From the NCBI RefSeq assembly GCF_022818495.1, contig NZ_CP089291.1, positions 3,861,501 through 3,925,500 on the forward strand: a stretch of 64,000 nucleotides of DNA. The letters run 5' to 3'. Positions within the stretch are counted from its first letter, which is position 1. The number at the start of each line of letters is the position of its first letter. The DNA is from Fodinisporobacter ferrooxydans. Lineage in GTDB: Bacteria; Bacillota; Bacilli; Tumebacillales; MYW30-H2. Position numbers and translations under genes: made by a program. This document shows positions 686-6,715 of the stretch, one piece after another. The notes under the pieces were generated by a model that saw only the letters and a list, made by a program, of their open reading frames with translations, had not been told where the DNA came from and searched no databases.

Positions 686-913
686 TTATAGCGGAAGTTG
701 CGTGTGTTGCCCGATCGTTACATCTTTGCCTAACTCGACAACTTCTTCCTCTTCGTCCGACATGCGATCCATTTTCACGCACCAAGTTTTCAAAACGTAC
801 AACAAACTGCTGATCAGCACGATTTGAAATATCCACCAAAATAAATCCCACCACAATGGTATGCCGGGGCTATTCGGAATCACAAACGGAAACGTTGGCC
901 AAAAATTCCCCAC
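686..913 (-). CDS. Small single-span membrane protein in the oxidase operon
   Basis: Encodes about 75 residues from a GTG at 913, preceded by AAGGAGG with seven-base spacing; an in-frame TTG at 931 lies upstream of that ribosome binding site and is unlikely to be the start. The protein has a Trp/Phe-rich N-terminus, one hydrophobic helix (about residues 20-42) and an acidic tail with a run of four Glu. It sits between the subunit III gene and the partial membrane-protein gene in the same orientation. Small oxidase subunits of this shape (subunit IV-like) are common in such operons, but no family signature is visible here, so that role is inference. Confidence 0.6.
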   Translation of the reverse strand: MGNFWPTFPFVIPNSPGIPLWWDLFWWIFQIVLISSLLYVLKTWCVKMDRMSDEEEEVVELGKDVTIGQHTQLPL

Positions 914-970
914 ACTTTCTCCTCCTTCCAAAATTGTACGATGCTTCAGGCCCTACGCTGTCCTCACATG

Positions 971-1546
971 TCAGATCAAATACATGACGACATACATAAC
1001 GATCCAGGCGAGCGAGACAAACATCCAAAAATGGGCAGCCGATTCTACACCCCAGTAATTCAGGCCGCCAACCCCGTGCATGCGCACTCTGCGATATGCA
1101 GAAAACAGCGTCAGAATCCCGCAAATGAGATAAAATGCCACCGTCCCCAATATGATCAAAAATACTTCACCAAAATGAGAAACTGGATTGACCGATCCGT
1201 CGACAAGTTGGACAAATACCAGTACGAGACCGATTATCCCAGTGGCCATCGCATATGCAAGCGACAACTGCACATTTGCCTGATTGTCTTTACGCGCTGC
1301 CACAAATCCTGCACGAGCAATCCCTGCGCTGATCAACATGACGATTGCCGCACTCAGCCCGATCATCTGATTGGCTTCCGGTGAAACATAGGAATCCGCC
1401 ATGATATACCGAACGTTGATAAGCACGAGAAACGGGATGATCATGCTTATTATAAACAGCGTAAATCCGCCCCGGAGCGCACGCAATTCCCGTTTGCTTA
1501 AAGGAATCGCACGTTCCGTTGGAAGACTTGTATTTGCCGATGCCAT
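971..1546 (-). CDS. coxC: Heme-copper oxidase subunit III
   Basis: A 191-residue protein with five hydrophobic segments, matching the short bacterial form of cytochrome oxidase subunit III, including the C-terminal AHFWMF...AWIVMYVVMY helix typical of the family. ATG at 1546 follows GGGAGTG with suitable spacing. It lies 61 bases downstream of the subunit I gene and is co-oriented with subunit II and I genes, so the operon encodes a complete three-subunit terminal oxidase. The family assignment is firm; which oxidase class it belongs to is read from subunit I. Confidence 0.88.
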   Translation of the reverse strand: MASANTSLPTERAIPLSKRELRALRGGFTLFIISMIIPFLVLINVRYIMADSYVSPEANQMIGLSAAIVMLISAGIARAGFVAARKDNQANVQLSLAYAMATGIIGLVLVFVQLVDGSVNPVSHFGEVFLIILGTVAFYLICGILTLFSAYRRVRMHGVGGLNYWGVESAAHFWMFVSLAWIVMYVVMYLI

Positions 1547-1607: not shown

Positions 1608-3482
1608 TTATCTTTGTGAAATTGCCGCCCCCGGCAGCACTACCGCTTCTTCGCTCTCATCCCCATACACGTAAAAACTGCCAACGACCCGCGGTGTTTC
1701 CGGAAAATTCACCGTTCCCTCCGGAGCAGCAGAATACCATTCCAGCGTTTTGCCACCCCATGGATTTTTCTCCGCCTTTGGTCCGCGTCTCCATGCATGC
1801 AGAATCACGATTGCGTTGTATAGGAAGCCAAGACCGAGCAATACGGCAAATATCGACACTTCAAAATTCATGTTTTGCAAATAGGGCATGTATACGGGAA
1901 CCCAGCGGTTCATGCCTTTCATCCCGAGAATGAAAAACTGTGTGAACGTAATGTTGAATGTCAGGAACACCCAAATAGCGCCGATAACGCCCAATTTTTC
2001 GTTATACATGCGTCCAGACAACTTGGGCAGCCAATAATACATCGCGCCCAGCCAACTGAATACCATGCCGCCGATGATTGTGTAATGGAAATGCCCGACG
2101 ATGAAAAACGTATCATGCTCCTGCAAATTGATGACCGGATCGGCCAGGAAAACGCCTGTAAGACCACCGATCAAGAAATTGAACATGCTCATCAAAATAA
2201 AAATGGTCGGCGTTGTCAAGCGCAATTTCGATTTCCACAGTGTTCCGATCACGACCATAAATGCAAAACCTGTAGGAATCGAAATCATTTCGGTAAAGAA
2301 TGAAAATGGCATCATCTCATCGTTTCTCATGTTTGTAAACATATGATGCGCCCATACCATCCCGGACAACGCCATGACAAACACAAGTCCGATGACGCCC
2401 CACTTTTCGGCAAACAACGATTTGCGCGACATGACCGGCAGAATCTCCTGCCACAAGGCAAAACCCGGCACAACTACAATGTATACTTCCGGATGCCCGA
2501 ACAGCCAGAACAACTCCATATACGTCAATGGACTGCCAACCGCTGTGAACAATGGCAATTGGGCAACATGTGCCAACAAACTTAAAATAAACGTCATCAT
2601 GATTTCCGGCAGCCAAATGAGATTCAAAAGACTGACCGTCAGCATGCCCCATGCGAATATCGGCAAGCGATTCCAGGTCAAGCCGGGCGCCCGTTTGAAA
2701 ATGATCGTTGCCGTCAAATTGATTGAGACCAGCAATGAGGATAACGTCAAAGCAAAAACACCCAAGTAATAGAAGATGATCCCTGAGGCATCTTGAGTAG
2801 CAAGAGGCTGGTATCCTCTCCATCCAGTCGTCCAATAGCCGAGCAGCGGACTAAACGCGACTGTCAAGATGCCTGCAGGTACCAACCATAAGCTGATGCC
2901 CGACATTTTCGGAAATGCAGATGTATTGGAGCCGATCATCAACGGGATGATATAGTTGCCCAATCCCCCAACCAATGCTACTGTTCCGACTGAAAACATC
3001 ATGATTGTTCCATGAATCCCGACAGTAGTCAGATATTGCTGCGGCAATTGGAACAGCCACATCTGGTCTTTCATCAGTTCGACACGCATCAACATCGCCG
3101 CAAAACCGGCGATGAAAAACCCGCCTGTCGACGCGACCACATACTGAATGCCGATCACTTTATGATCTGTACTATATTCCAGATATCTCCGCCAACCGGT
3201 AGCAGGCGCCCAGCGCGTCGCAATGCCGAACGCAGGTTTTACAACCGCTTCCCACGTACCAATCCCCAGTATCCATCCGACCAACGCAGCCACCCAACCA
3301 ATCGTAACCGATAATTCCGTTACAAACGGATGTCCATATGTCGGCACTGTCTCGCTAATCAATGTATTAAATACCAAAAAACCGACAGCCGCCCACAAAA
3401 ACCCGCGCAATACGGGTGGCATGCGTTTTTTTGCTACGAAAGGAACCGAATATTCGGGTTCCATTGCAGTCATTGTACTCAT
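1608..3482 (-). CDS. coxA: Heme-copper oxidase subunit I (A-type)
   Basis: Catalytic subunit that reduces O2 to water at a heme-CuB centre and pumps protons. The GHPEVYI block with the CuB histidine, the adjacent Glu of the D-channel and the Tyr that cross-links to His marks it as A-type; the AHHMFT histidine pair and VGHFHYT block supply remaining CuB and heme ligands. The start is set at 3482, where ATG follows GGGAGGA by eight bases; an in-frame ATG at 3512 would add ten residues but lies before that site. About 624 residues. An N-terminal extension of roughly 100 residues carries two hydrophobic helices before the canonical domain. It lies between subunit II and III genes. Confidence 0.93.
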   Translation of the reverse strand: MSTMTAMEPEYSVPFVAKKRMPPVLRGFLWAAVGFLVFNTLISETVPTYGHPFVTELSVTIGWVAALVGWILGIGTWEAVVKPAFGIATRWAPATGWRRYLEYSTDHKVIGIQYVVASTGGFFIAGFAAMLMRVELMKDQMWLFQLPQQYLTTVGIHGTIMMFSVGTVALVGGLGNYIIPLMIGSNTSAFPKMSGISLWLVPAGILTVAFSPLLGYWTTGWRGYQPLATQDASGIIFYYLGVFALTLSSLLVSINLTATIIFKRAPGLTWNRLPIFAWGMLTVSLLNLIWLPEIMMTFILSLLAHVAQLPLFTAVGSPLTYMELFWLFGHPEVYIVVVPGFALWQEILPVMSRKSLFAEKWGVIGLVFVMALSGMVWAHHMFTNMRNDEMMPFSFFTEMISIPTGFAFMVVIGTLWKSKLRLTTPTIFILMSMFNFLIGGLTGVFLADPVINLQEHDTFFIVGHFHYTIIGGMVFSWLGAMYYWLPKLSGRMYNEKLGVIGAIWVFLTFNITFTQFFILGMKGMNRWVPVYMPYLQNMNFEVSIFAVLLGLGFLYNAIVILHAWRRGPKAEKNPWGGKTLEWYSAAPEGTVNFPETPRVVGSFYVYGDESEEAVVLPGAAISQR

Positions 3483-3545
3483 TTTTGCAGTCCTCCCTTT
3501 TTTCAGTCTCACTGTTTCAATAAGGTCCCAGAGCCGACTGCCACA

Positions 3546-4361
3546 TCAGGAGCCTTGTTGCATCTTTTTCTCTTTCGCAATCCATTTTTGGAAATCGCTG
3601 CCCGATACGATCGACAGAGGTGTTTCCATGTATGGATGACCGGCTCCGCAGACTTCCGCACACTGCACGCGTACCATCGGATCGATTTTCGTATTGGTAA
3701 TCTTGGTGGTCGTAATATATTCCGTCCGTGTTTCCCCGGGAATGACATCCTCTTTGATACCAAATGCCGGCACCCAGAAACTATGGATGACACCAATCGC
3801 CGGGTCATACGTATGTGCGGGATCATACGACCGCAGTACAAATTCGATCTTTGTATTGACCGGCAATACGATCTGATCATTCCCGTCTTTGTCAACCGTT
3901 TGCGTCAAACCGTATTGCGGGTAGCTGTACTGCCACTCCCACTGGCGGGCGACGACATCGACTACCAGTACGTTTGGCGCGGATTTCGCTTGTGATTCTT
4001 CATCCATGAACATGGTCTGAATCGCACTATCTGTTGGATGGATGAACAATAACACATTTATCAAAATACTGACCGCGACCCAGATCGCAATATAAGGTTT
4101 GTTGTTTTTCACTTGCAATTTTGCATGACTGGAATCACTCGACTTGTTCCTGTAACGGAACAATATGAACAAAAGCATCAATACAACGAACACAAAAATA
4201 GGCGTCAATATCGAAAGAATGAATGCAGCCGCCTCTTGCCCTTCATGCGCCTGCGCCGACGCAACAGATAGATACAAATGGTCGCCGATCGACTGTACAC
4301 CCCATTCACCCAATAGCGATAAAATGACCCAAAGTATACCGAAAATGATATAATCGATCAT
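3546..4361 (-). CDS. coxB: Heme-copper oxidase subunit II with CuA site
   Basis: A 271-residue membrane-anchored subunit that takes electrons into the oxidase. An N-terminal hydrophobic segment is followed by two transmembrane helices (about residues 45-70 and 90-108) and an extracytoplasmic cupredoxin domain. The CuA ligands are all visible: His in HSFWVPAF and Cys-Glu-Cys-His-Met in CAEVCGAGHPYM. The WQWEW-like aromatic block appears as RQWEWQY. No C-terminal cytochrome c domain is fused, so the electron donor must be a separate protein; the two cupredoxin-type proteins encoded immediately upstream are obvious candidates. ATG at 4361 follows an AGGAG. Confidence 0.93.
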   Translation of the reverse strand: MIDYIIFGILWVILSLLGEWGVQSIGDHLYLSVASAQAHEGQEAAAFILSILTPIFVFVVLMLLFILFRYRNKSSDSSHAKLQVKNNKPYIAIWVAVSILINVLLFIHPTDSAIQTMFMDEESQAKSAPNVLVVDVVARQWEWQYSYPQYGLTQTVDKDGNDQIVLPVNTKIEFVLRSYDPAHTYDPAIGVIHSFWVPAFGIKEDVIPGETRTEYITTTKITNTKIDPMVRVQCAEVCGAGHPYMETPLSIVSGSDFQKWIAKEKKMQQGS

Positions 4362-4418: not shown

Positions 4419-5099
4419 CTAGGATTTTATGATTCGCAATGTACCTTTCATCCCTGCCCGATAATGCACAAACCCCTGTACAAAACATCCGTATTGCCAT
4501 ACTCCCGGTTTATCGGGCACCTTAATCTTCAAACGGATCGATCCCCCTGGCATAAGTGTTGGACTGAAATTTCCCTGACCTTGTTGTGTAATCAACCATG
4601 GATATTTCTCGTTTGACTTGATGATCGCCTTATTTGTGACAAAGTTGTCGACCCCGTGTCCTTCCAATACTTCTACTTGTACACCATCCCAAAAATCTTT
4701 GTGAAATTGGGTTTTGACATCACCGAAATCACTGGGTGTCAAATCAAACCCCTGCCCCATCATCCACTCATGAAAACGATTCGGACTTAAATTGTGGAAA
4801 TTGACCACAACCTCGTCGCCAACTCGCCATACCATTTCGTTAGGCAAATAGTAATAATCGCCCACGTATAAATCCTGTATGCCTTTACTGACGGGTACTC
4901 CTGTCATCGCCTTGATCGTCTTTCCTATCAAAGATTGCCCAAACAAAGCTGTAATGCCGACGATCGCCATTGCCCCAGTCCCGATCAAAAATTTTCGGCG
5001 GCTCCAATCTACCGGCTCATCTGTTCGCTGTAGCATACCACCCGTATCACCTTTATCATCAGATTGCTGATTCGCTTGTTTTCCTTCGTTGCTATCCAT
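4419..5099 (-). CDS. Tat-exported cupredoxin-domain protein
   Basis: A 226-residue protein with a twin-arginine signal (SRRKFLIGTG at about residues 33-42) followed by a hydrophobic stretch, so it should be exported folded and possibly stay anchored. The remainder is a cupredoxin domain: His in FHEWMM and the C-terminal set GCFVQGFVHYRAGM provide Cys, His and Met of a mononuclear copper site, though with wider Cys-His spacing than classical plastocyanins. It precedes the subunit II gene by 57 bases. A tatA gene and a broken tatC lie just upstream. Role as electron carrier to the oxidase, or as an accessory copper subunit, is inference from position and fold. Confidence 0.82.
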   Translation of the reverse strand: MDSNEGKQANQQSDDKGDTGGMLQRTDEPVDWSRRKFLIGTGAMAIVGITALFGQSLIGKTIKAMTGVPVSKGIQDLYVGDYYYLPNEMVWRVGDEVVVNFHNLSPNRFHEWMMGQGFDLTPSDFGDVKTQFHKDFWDGVQVEVLEGHGVDNFVTNKAIIKSNEKYPWLITQQGQGNFSPTLMPGGSIRLKIKVPDKPGVWQYGCFVQGFVHYRAGMKGTLRIIKS

Positions 5100-5222: not shown

Positions 5223-5753
5223 TTACTTGATCTGAACACTCGGTTGGCCGCCATCGACCACTTTGAACACTGCCCACATGCCAAGATCCTGATGCCGTTG
5301 CCGATCATTTGGAAAGTAGTAGAGCATCGACGCCAATCGATACGTACCTGCTTGTGCCGCATCAAATTTGTACGTTTGCGAATCGCCTGGCATGACCCCG
5401 GCACCTGCATTGCCTTGGATGGCAGAAATCGAATCCCCGGCCCCTTTGAACGCCAGCTTGCGGTTTCCGTCATAGATGCCGATATCTTGCGGAATCCCGC
5501 TCTTGTTTTCAAAATCAATTTTCACATGATATCCGACTGGAATATCGATCTCGATTTGTCCATGTGAAGCGCCATTAAAATTCATGTAACTGTTTGAACT
5601 GTTGTAACCACCGATCACTTTCATCGTCACCGTTTGCGACGCTTGATCCACTTGAAACCACGATGACGGTGGATCTACAGTTTGACCGCAACCGGCCAAC
5701 ATGAATGTTGCAAGCAACGGCAATCCTGCCAAACCCAGTTTTTTGTTTAACAT
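5223..5753 (-). CDS. Sulfocyanin-like lipoprotein with degenerate copper site
   Basis: About 176 residues with a lipoprotein signal ending LAGC (Cys near residue 22), so it should be attached to the outer membrane face. The mature part resembles sulfocyanin/SoxE cupredoxins: the FNGASHGQIEIDIPVGY segment and the C-terminal GMWAVFKV strand align with that family as I know it. The usual first His (Pro-His-Ser) reads IPQDIG, and the usual Ala-Cys reads LASMLYY, so two of four type 1 copper ligands appear absent while the later His and Met (RHQDLGM) remain. ATG at 5753 follows GGGG by seven bases; another ATG is at 5759. It is the first gene of the oxidase operon. Confidence 0.72.
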   Translation of the reverse strand: MLNKKLGLAGLPLLATFMLAGCGQTVDPPSSWFQVDQASQTVTMKVIGGYNSSNSYMNFNGASHGQIEIDIPVGYHVKIDFENKSGIPQDIGIYDGNRKLAFKGAGDSISAIQGNAGAGVMPGDSQTYKFDAAQAGTYRLASMLYYFPNDRQRHQDLGMWAVFKVVDGGQPSVQIK

Positions 5754-5952
5754 CACCATACCCCACTATCATTCAGATTCAATACAATACAGACACAGAT
5801 CACTCTTTCTTTGATTATCACCCCCTTAAAGGCAATTCTTGGATCATCCTTTGTCTGCCCGCTCTCTAAACAACAAAGTATTTTCATTATCGAAATGTAT
5901 CATATTGCGAAACTAGGTTCCGTATACAGAGGCAAGCCCCCACTACCTATTA

Positions 5953-6053: not shown

Positions 6054-6493
6054 TTAAATTGGTTTGATTCCAAGAATTATAATAGCTTCTGTTCTGACTT
6101 TAAAATCTATCTTAGCCAAACGAATCGGTGTAAGAATACCGATTCCCGTTAAGAACATGACGATCAAAGATATTTGAAAAAAATTCAAAAGGCAACGTAA
6201 TATCAATGAGAAAACTGAAATTGTTTGCAGCCGTCAACATTACATTGAAATTTTTGTATGAATACTTCAACAAAACGCCCAATAGCATTTTGAATACGAT
6301 AAAGTAGCAAAATAAGACCCCTATAATAAACAATAGAAGAATAGTGGGAGTAAATAGGAGTGTACAATCTGTATATTTTTCCAACAAATATAAATTCAAA
6401 AACCATTGTAGTAACGAAGTAGATAAGCATCGTAATGATTCTTCGTCTAAGTTCTTCTAGGTGTCGGACAAGACTCATTTCTGAATCAGACAT
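6054..6493 (-). pseudogene. tatC: tatC pseudogene (deletion plus frameshifts)
   Basis: Three reading-frame pieces together recall TatC, the multi-span receptor of twin-arginine export. Piece one starts at ATG 6493 (AGAGG upstream) with the signature MSLVRHLEELRRR and the first helix. Piece two, in another frame, has LLLFIIGVLFCYFIVF and the NFSFL...LPFEF helices. Piece three, in the third frame (about 6150-6054), reads GIGILTPIRLAKIDF, the family's conserved loop, then ends at a TAA at 6054. Roughly 60 residues between the first and third helices are missing. It follows tatA by 19 bases. A functional TatC must be encoded elsewhere if the neighbouring Tat substrate is exported. Confidence 0.8.
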
Positions 6494-6511
6494 CCATAAC
6501 AACCTCTACCT

Positions 6512-6715
6512 CTATCTCTTATCTGTTTCCGCCTTATTAACGGAATCTGCCTTTGCTTCACTTGAACCAGAAGTAAGCTCTTTTGTTGCATCTTTAAATT
6601 CTTTTAGTGACCGTCCGAATGCGCGTCCAATCTCTGGCAGTTTACTTGGACCAAATATGATAAGCGCAAGCGCAAGTATAAGAATCAAGCCGGGAAGTCC
6701 GATGTTTGATAACAT
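6512..6715 (-). CDS. tatA: Sec-independent translocase protein TatA
   Basis: A 67-residue protein with a single N-terminal helix, the [21 protein letters not shown] hinge and amphipathic helix of TatA/TatE (shown here in part), and a charged hydrophilic tail. It would form the pore component of twin-arginine export in the membrane. ATG at 6715 has AGCAGG upstream. The partner tatC directly downstream is broken, so this TatA either works with a TatC encoded elsewhere or is on its way out. The Tat-dependent cupredoxin gene 1.4 kb away suggests the pair once served it. The 6720-7150 stretch upstream is AT-rich and I see no further gene in it. Confidence 0.9.

Follow-up and report, generated by a model that had tools for sequence, protein, structure and literature searches.

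For Gram-positive acidophiles, a carrier role on the electron path from ferrous iron to oxygen has been suggested for sulfocyanin (SoxE), based on the presence of its gene and its high expression (PMC4062416, PMC6315122, PMC6803676). Fodinisporobacter ferrooxydans MYW30-H2 is a weak iron oxidizer with a GC content of 44.2% (PMC11123200). Its genome contains an oxidase operon led by a gene for a SoxE-like lipoprotein, in which copper ligands of the family appear to be replaced. What can such a protein do beside an oxidase? We analyzed the window, that is, the whole stretch of 64,000 nucleotides around this operon (contig NZ_CP089291.1, positions 3,861,501 to 3,925,500; GC content 44.7%), together with relatives of the encoded protein.

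A SoxE-family lipoprotein with a predicted cupredoxin fold

The coordinates of the gene, its ligand positions, and the neighboring genes are listed in Table 1. The ATG at 5753, which the sequence-only reading had taken as the start, is more likely than the ATG at 5759 because a GTGGGG, recognized by eye, lies 7 nt upstream of the former and only 1 nt upstream of the latter. Residue numbers (Q91, S144, H156, M161) are nevertheless counted from 5759, where the open reading frame comprises 178 amino acids with a lipoprotein-type signal ending in LAGC. A sigma-70-type match upstream of the gene (6104-6076, minus strand) was no better than the shuffle background.

Table 1. Features of the SoxE-like gene and the acoP-cox operon, in window coordinates
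Feature	Position	Strand	Basis or remark
SoxE/sulfocyanin-like lipoprotein without copper ligands	5223..5753	-	PF06525, 41.8 bits; alternative start upstream at 5759
Lipobox codons L-A-G-C24, lipid-anchored Cys	5688..5699	-	Cys24 in 45/45 clade members
Codon Gln91 (IPQD), first copper-ligand His position	5487..5489	-	Alignment with canonical sulfocyanins
Codon Ser144 (LASML), copper-ligand Cys position	5328..5330	-	Alignment; always S, N or D in operon relatives
Codon His156 (RHQD), near second copper-ligand His position, not conserved	5292..5294	-	His in 7/27 operon-linked members
Codon Met161 of GMW, axial Met position	5277..5279	-	Kept in 26/27 operon-linked members
acoP, AcoP-type cupredoxin, Tat-like N-terminus (SRRKFLIG)	4419..5099	-	Profile match to AcoP 7z3b/7z3f, E 6.6e-27
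coxB, oxidase subunit II with CuA motif	3546..4361	-	PF00116; CoxB TIGR02866, 1.1e-34
coxA, oxidase subunit I	1608..3512	-	PF00115, 1.7e-107
coxC, oxidase subunit III-like	971..1546	-	PF00510, 2.2e-4, below cut-off; conserved position
Small membrane protein resembling coxD (subunit IV), uncertain start	686..931	-	No Pfam match; conserved last operon gene in relatives

The protein exceeded the curated cut-off of the PF06525 SoxE profile (41.8 bits against 21) and was the only PF06525 match in the whole genome. With the sulfocyanin/SoxE proteins of Sulfolobus and Ferroplasma it shares this family profile, a cupredoxin fold (predicted here), a membrane anchor, and a link to a heme-copper oxidase. 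However, it differs from them in lacking the first His and the Cys ligand, in carrying a longer, replaced loop, and in failing the sulfocyanin equivalog TIGR03094 (NCBIfam) with 35.3 bits against a cut-off of 168.4.

A PDB sequence search with the SoxE-like protein alone returned no clear relative, and a search with its alignment profile returned weak cupredoxin matches only. A structure model built from 24 sequences had a pLDDT of 80.4, with the signal and residues 145-160 weak. Its best fold match was 7rab_F (Z 13.0, 2.7 A, 123 residues). Among the top Foldseek matches, 578 chains had a Z of at least 8, led by multicopper oxidases and nitrite reductases, and CuA domains and rusticyanin were also present. 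The fold of the window protein is thus predicted to be that of a cupredoxin.

Copper-ligand positions and the ligand-less clade

We then examined the ligand positions by alignment with canonical sulfocyanins, which placed Q91 at the first His and S144 at the Cys and so confirmed the two substitutions described in the sequence-only reading. That reading had also held that the later His and Met remain. This is correct for the Met of the GMW motif, which nearly all operon-linked members keep, but weak for the His, since the column of H156 lies within a ligand loop that is about 8 residues longer in the operon relatives than in true sulfocyanins and is seldom His there. In the 27 operon-linked members, the Cys position is always S, D, or N, and the first-His position holds His in a single member, the others having F, Y, A, Q, M, V, or T. 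In clade members from Sulfobacillia, the first His is usually replaced by E and the Cys by D, N, or S; the GMW Met, retained in Bacilli members, is mostly V, Q, L, or I. In the comparison set, copper ligands are mostly intact, with the Cys present in 31 of 37 rows of the first alignment and 50 of 57 rows of a larger set.

Over the whole clade (n = 45), the ligand Cys occurs in no member and the first His in one, and the lipobox Cys is present in all. Other Cys or His residues at the copper site, which the sequence-only reading had named as evidence against itself, were sought in the 45 sequences and none was found. No His, Met, Asp, Glu, or non-lipobox Cys is conserved across these rows; the columns conserved in at least 85% of them contain G, P, Y, V, N, L, A, F, S, W, and the lipobox C24. 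Judged by its ligand positions, the window protein is not a type 1 copper electron carrier. Electron carriage through an unusual copper site or another metal site could be argued from membership in the SoxE family, from M161 (together with H156 in the window), and from relatives that are annotated as sulfocyanin and tied to iron oxidation (PMC6315122, PMC4062416), but the near-complete loss of both ligands and the lack of any conserved substitute make it very improbable.

The sequence-only reading had further suggested a copper chaperone. The place of the gene in the operon beside two copper proteins would suit a chaperone for CuA or AcoP. However, copper chaperones of the Sco, PCuAC, and CopZ types would have a metal-binding Cys, His, or Met motif, and no such residue is conserved in the clade other than the lipobox Cys, which is itself lipidated; M161 is lost in most Sulfobacillia members. 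With no Asp or Glu conserved either, this suggestion lacks support, and we consider a chaperone role quite unlikely.

The emptied site might instead form a pocket for another ligand, such as an organic molecule or an iron complex, which would make the protein a lipoprotein for binding or sensing in connection with iron respiration. A clade motif surrounding the former copper site (P90, G94, and Y96 of GIPxxxGxY, and F104, each in 44-45 of 45 members), the longer loop that takes the place of the Cys-His-Met loop, and the stand-alone copies in Sulfobacillia are all compatible with such a pocket. On the other hand, there is no invariant charged or polar cluster, the conserved residues are mostly Gly, Pro, Phe, and Trp and may be merely structural, and the replacement loop is poorly modeled (pLDDT about 57-74). 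We regard this explanation as unlikely, although less so than a chaperone.

To place these proteins in the SoxE family, we used a tree built with the ligand columns left out, in which the small number of columns leaves the inner forks weak. The 45 ligand-less rows formed one clade (SH-aLRT 99), whose hosts are acidophilic Alicyclobacillaceae-like Bacillota and Sulfobacillia, and in Sulfobacillia profile scores split cleanly, with ligands absent where the clade profile outscores the canonical profile. For close pairs with finite dS, dN/dS of the SoxE-like gene was 0.06-0.14, a sign of strong purifying selection; for acoP, pairs with finite dS gave 0.02-0.09. Because the Cys is missing in every clade member, its loss goes beyond chance. 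On the evidence of alignment and tree, the ligand loss is an old, conserved trait of the whole clade and not the decay of a single gene, and this conserved ligand-less variant of the SoxE family is new. The clade-wide loss and the dN/dS values rule out a sequencing error or decay in a single genome. A decaying pseudogene in the window genome would account for two lost ligands, but the reading frame and lipobox are intact and the loss is shared across the clade under purifying selection, leaving this explanation a negligible probability.

Over the whole set, the tree required 5 label changes, indicating that the Cys was also lost elsewhere in the SoxE family. Such separate losses were seen in L028, L053, L054, L083, L210, L212, and L213, where Asn often replaces the first His and Ser the Cys, and some of these domains lie inside much larger proteins. 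Three PF06525-type proteins were recovered from one Sulfobacillia genome (G524): a member of the ligand-less clade (L154), one with the Asn/Ser replacement (L210), and one that keeps all ligands (L211).

Association with acoP and the oxidase genes

Neither the clade-wide ligand loss nor the identity of the next gene, acoP, had been part of the sequence-only reading. The acoP product has 226 amino acids and no Pfam family; the PDB entries that it matches, 7z3b and 7z3f, are AcoP of Acidithiobacillus ferrooxidans. Its copper ligands H110, C205, H212, and M217 (C-x6-H-x4-M) are complete and invariant in 23 of 23 sequences. The CoxB motif C-x3-C-x3-H-x2-M and the CoxA motifs HPEVY and HH were each found in 35 of 35 relatives. 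The locus thus has the features of an AcoP-cox operon, with the AcoP ligand set and with acoP beside coxB and coxA whose CuA and heme-copper motifs are intact. The C-x6-H spacing of AcoP has been described as unusual (PMC4059628), and the protein is a partner of both cytochrome c and the oxidase, which it helps to stay active at acidic pH (PMC4059628, PMC5982212).

When named genomes were scanned, the window protein alone as query returned nothing, and the alignment as query returned 43 loci, found blind by the SoxE-like sequence. All 23 high-scoring loci (profile score at least 199 bits) contained the SoxE-like gene, acoP, coxB, and coxA in order, followed by coxC and a small gene in all except L060, where the contig ends in coxA. 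None of the 20 lower-scoring loci contained AcoP. Among the named hosts are Alicyclobacillus ferrooxydans, A. mengziensis, A. tolerans, Sulfoacidibacillus thermotolerans, and Ferroacidibacillus organovorans; two operon copies are present in several hosts. Whole-genome searches of the class revealed members 33-44% identical to the window protein; the identical operon order was found in 12 whole-genome loci, one of which (L047) lacked a detected sixth gene, and in G288. Altogether, the order SoxE-like, AcoP, coxB, coxA, coxC, coxD-like is common to the window and 27 relatives, so the leading position of the gene noted from the sequence is a shared feature.

Two types of AcoP occur: the N-terminus of one is of the twin-arginine kind (WSRR.FLIG), and the other has a plain membrane anchor. 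Genomes with two operons can carry one of each. Upstream of the operon in the window (6112-6715, minus strand) lie an intact tatA (6512-6715) and a broken tatC, which has lost its middle part and is split into two pieces that lie in different frames; elsewhere in the genome (C1:1790864), tatC is matched over its full length. The tat genes were ruled out as a conserved part of the operon, as loci L038-L077 gave no tatA or tatC match.

We also considered whether the SoxE-like protein is independent of the oxidase, the operon link reflecting shared regulation only. In Sulfobacillia, 8 of 17 clade members stand alone outside any acoP-cox operon, and most acoP-cox operons there have no SoxE-like gene: it lies upstream in 6 of 44 acoP loci examined, some of which have little upstream sequence. 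However, all 28 Bacilli-side members (the window, 26 relatives, and L118) immediately precede acoP, in several genera and in two operon paralogues per genome, and we therefore judge independence improbable, about on a par with a pocket for another ligand. From the acoP side, 16 acoP loci were covered in the Bacilli class sampled, and 14 of them have the SoxE-like gene directly upstream. The acoP-cox operon of G027 has no SoxE-like gene, and that genome encodes a ligand-intact sulfocyanin elsewhere. One genome can carry acoP-cox operons both with and without the gene. Given its absence from most Sulfobacillia operons and the existence of stand-alone copies, the SoxE-like protein is an optional part of the system.

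The Sulfobacillia also bear on the published sulfocyanin route. In S. thermosulfidooxidans, Sulth_0453 (SoxE) adjoins Sulth_0449-0451 (coxC, coxA, coxB), and all of these genes drop when the competing iron oxidizer Leptospirillum ferriphilum is present (PMC6315122), an indirect pointer to induction by ferrous iron in this species. In genome G479, we found coxC, coxA, coxB, acoP, and the SoxE-like gene in order at 421.7-426.4 kb. A further acoP-cox operon, this one lacking SoxE, lies at 456.5-460.6 kb, in agreement with the numbering of Sulth_0488-0489. From gene order and map position, we infer that Sulth_0453 is a member of the ligand-less clade. Although published as a sulfocyanin in an iron-oxidation context, its syntenic counterpart here (L151) has no copper ligands; the residues in their place are E, D, and L.

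Proposed role and comparison with known systems

Of the options named in the sequence-only reading, a structural subunit is favored. On balance, we lean toward the SoxE-like protein being a copper-free, non-redox accessory subunit or docking lipoprotein of an AcoP-containing aa3-type oxidase of the iron-oxidation type. A structural role is likely; this role, the physical association with the oxidase, and the identity of the donor are all three points that we infer. In this scheme, a cupredoxin-fold lipoprotein would have given up its type 1 copper site for good, and the lipid would anchor it to the outer side of the membrane, next to AcoP and CoxB. In that position, it may stabilize the AcoP-oxidase assembly in acid, or it may present this assembly to a soluble copper carrier, for example the rusticyanin-like protein of the genome.

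This rusticyanin-like protein (C1:2766951-2767364; L119:6574-7371) scored 102.6 bits, below the curated cut-off, with its ligands intact and with Gly-Ser-Met-rich repeats near its N-terminus; among the proteins encoded by this genome, it is a candidate for an electron carrier.

The rus operon of Acidithiobacillus ferrooxidans has the order cyc2-cyc1-acoP-coxBACD-rus. In both operons, acoP is followed by coxB, coxA, coxC, and a small fourth gene. In contrast to the rus operon, the present one begins with the ligand-less SoxE-like lipoprotein, neither a cytochrome nor a rusticyanin gene was noted next to it, and the rusticyanin-like gene is located elsewhere in the genome. Loss of copper for a structural task has a parallel in SufI (FtsP) of E. 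coli, which has a multicopper-oxidase fold, has lost its copper, and performs a structural job. SufI was among the fold matches of the window protein (Z 11.1, 3.5 A, 126 residues), but it is a three-domain relative of multicopper oxidases from an unrelated operon.

An oxidase-adjacent SoxE that is unable to form a type 1 copper site would be removed as a carrier in these organisms, pointing instead to AcoP, rusticyanin-like proteins, and the few ligand-intact sulfocyanins, and would be predicted to represent a new structural oxidase subunit. More tentatively, Gram-positive iron oxidizers might use a dedicated copper-free pseudo-sulfocyanin to dock their iron-side carrier on the AcoP-oxidase, and the sulfocyanin route described for Sulfobacillus might rest partly on this non-redox protein.

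Two further loci were observed in the course of these searches. In Ferroacidibacillus organovorans, acoP, coxB, and coxA occur together a third time (L116:102-3359), here with no SoxE-like gene; coxA of this set is cut to 255 amino acids and lies beside a transposase-like ORF. L120:1904-4102 (minus strand) encodes a 732-amino-acid protein in which an apparent quinoprotein-type repeat region is joined to a ligand-intact sulfocyanin domain.
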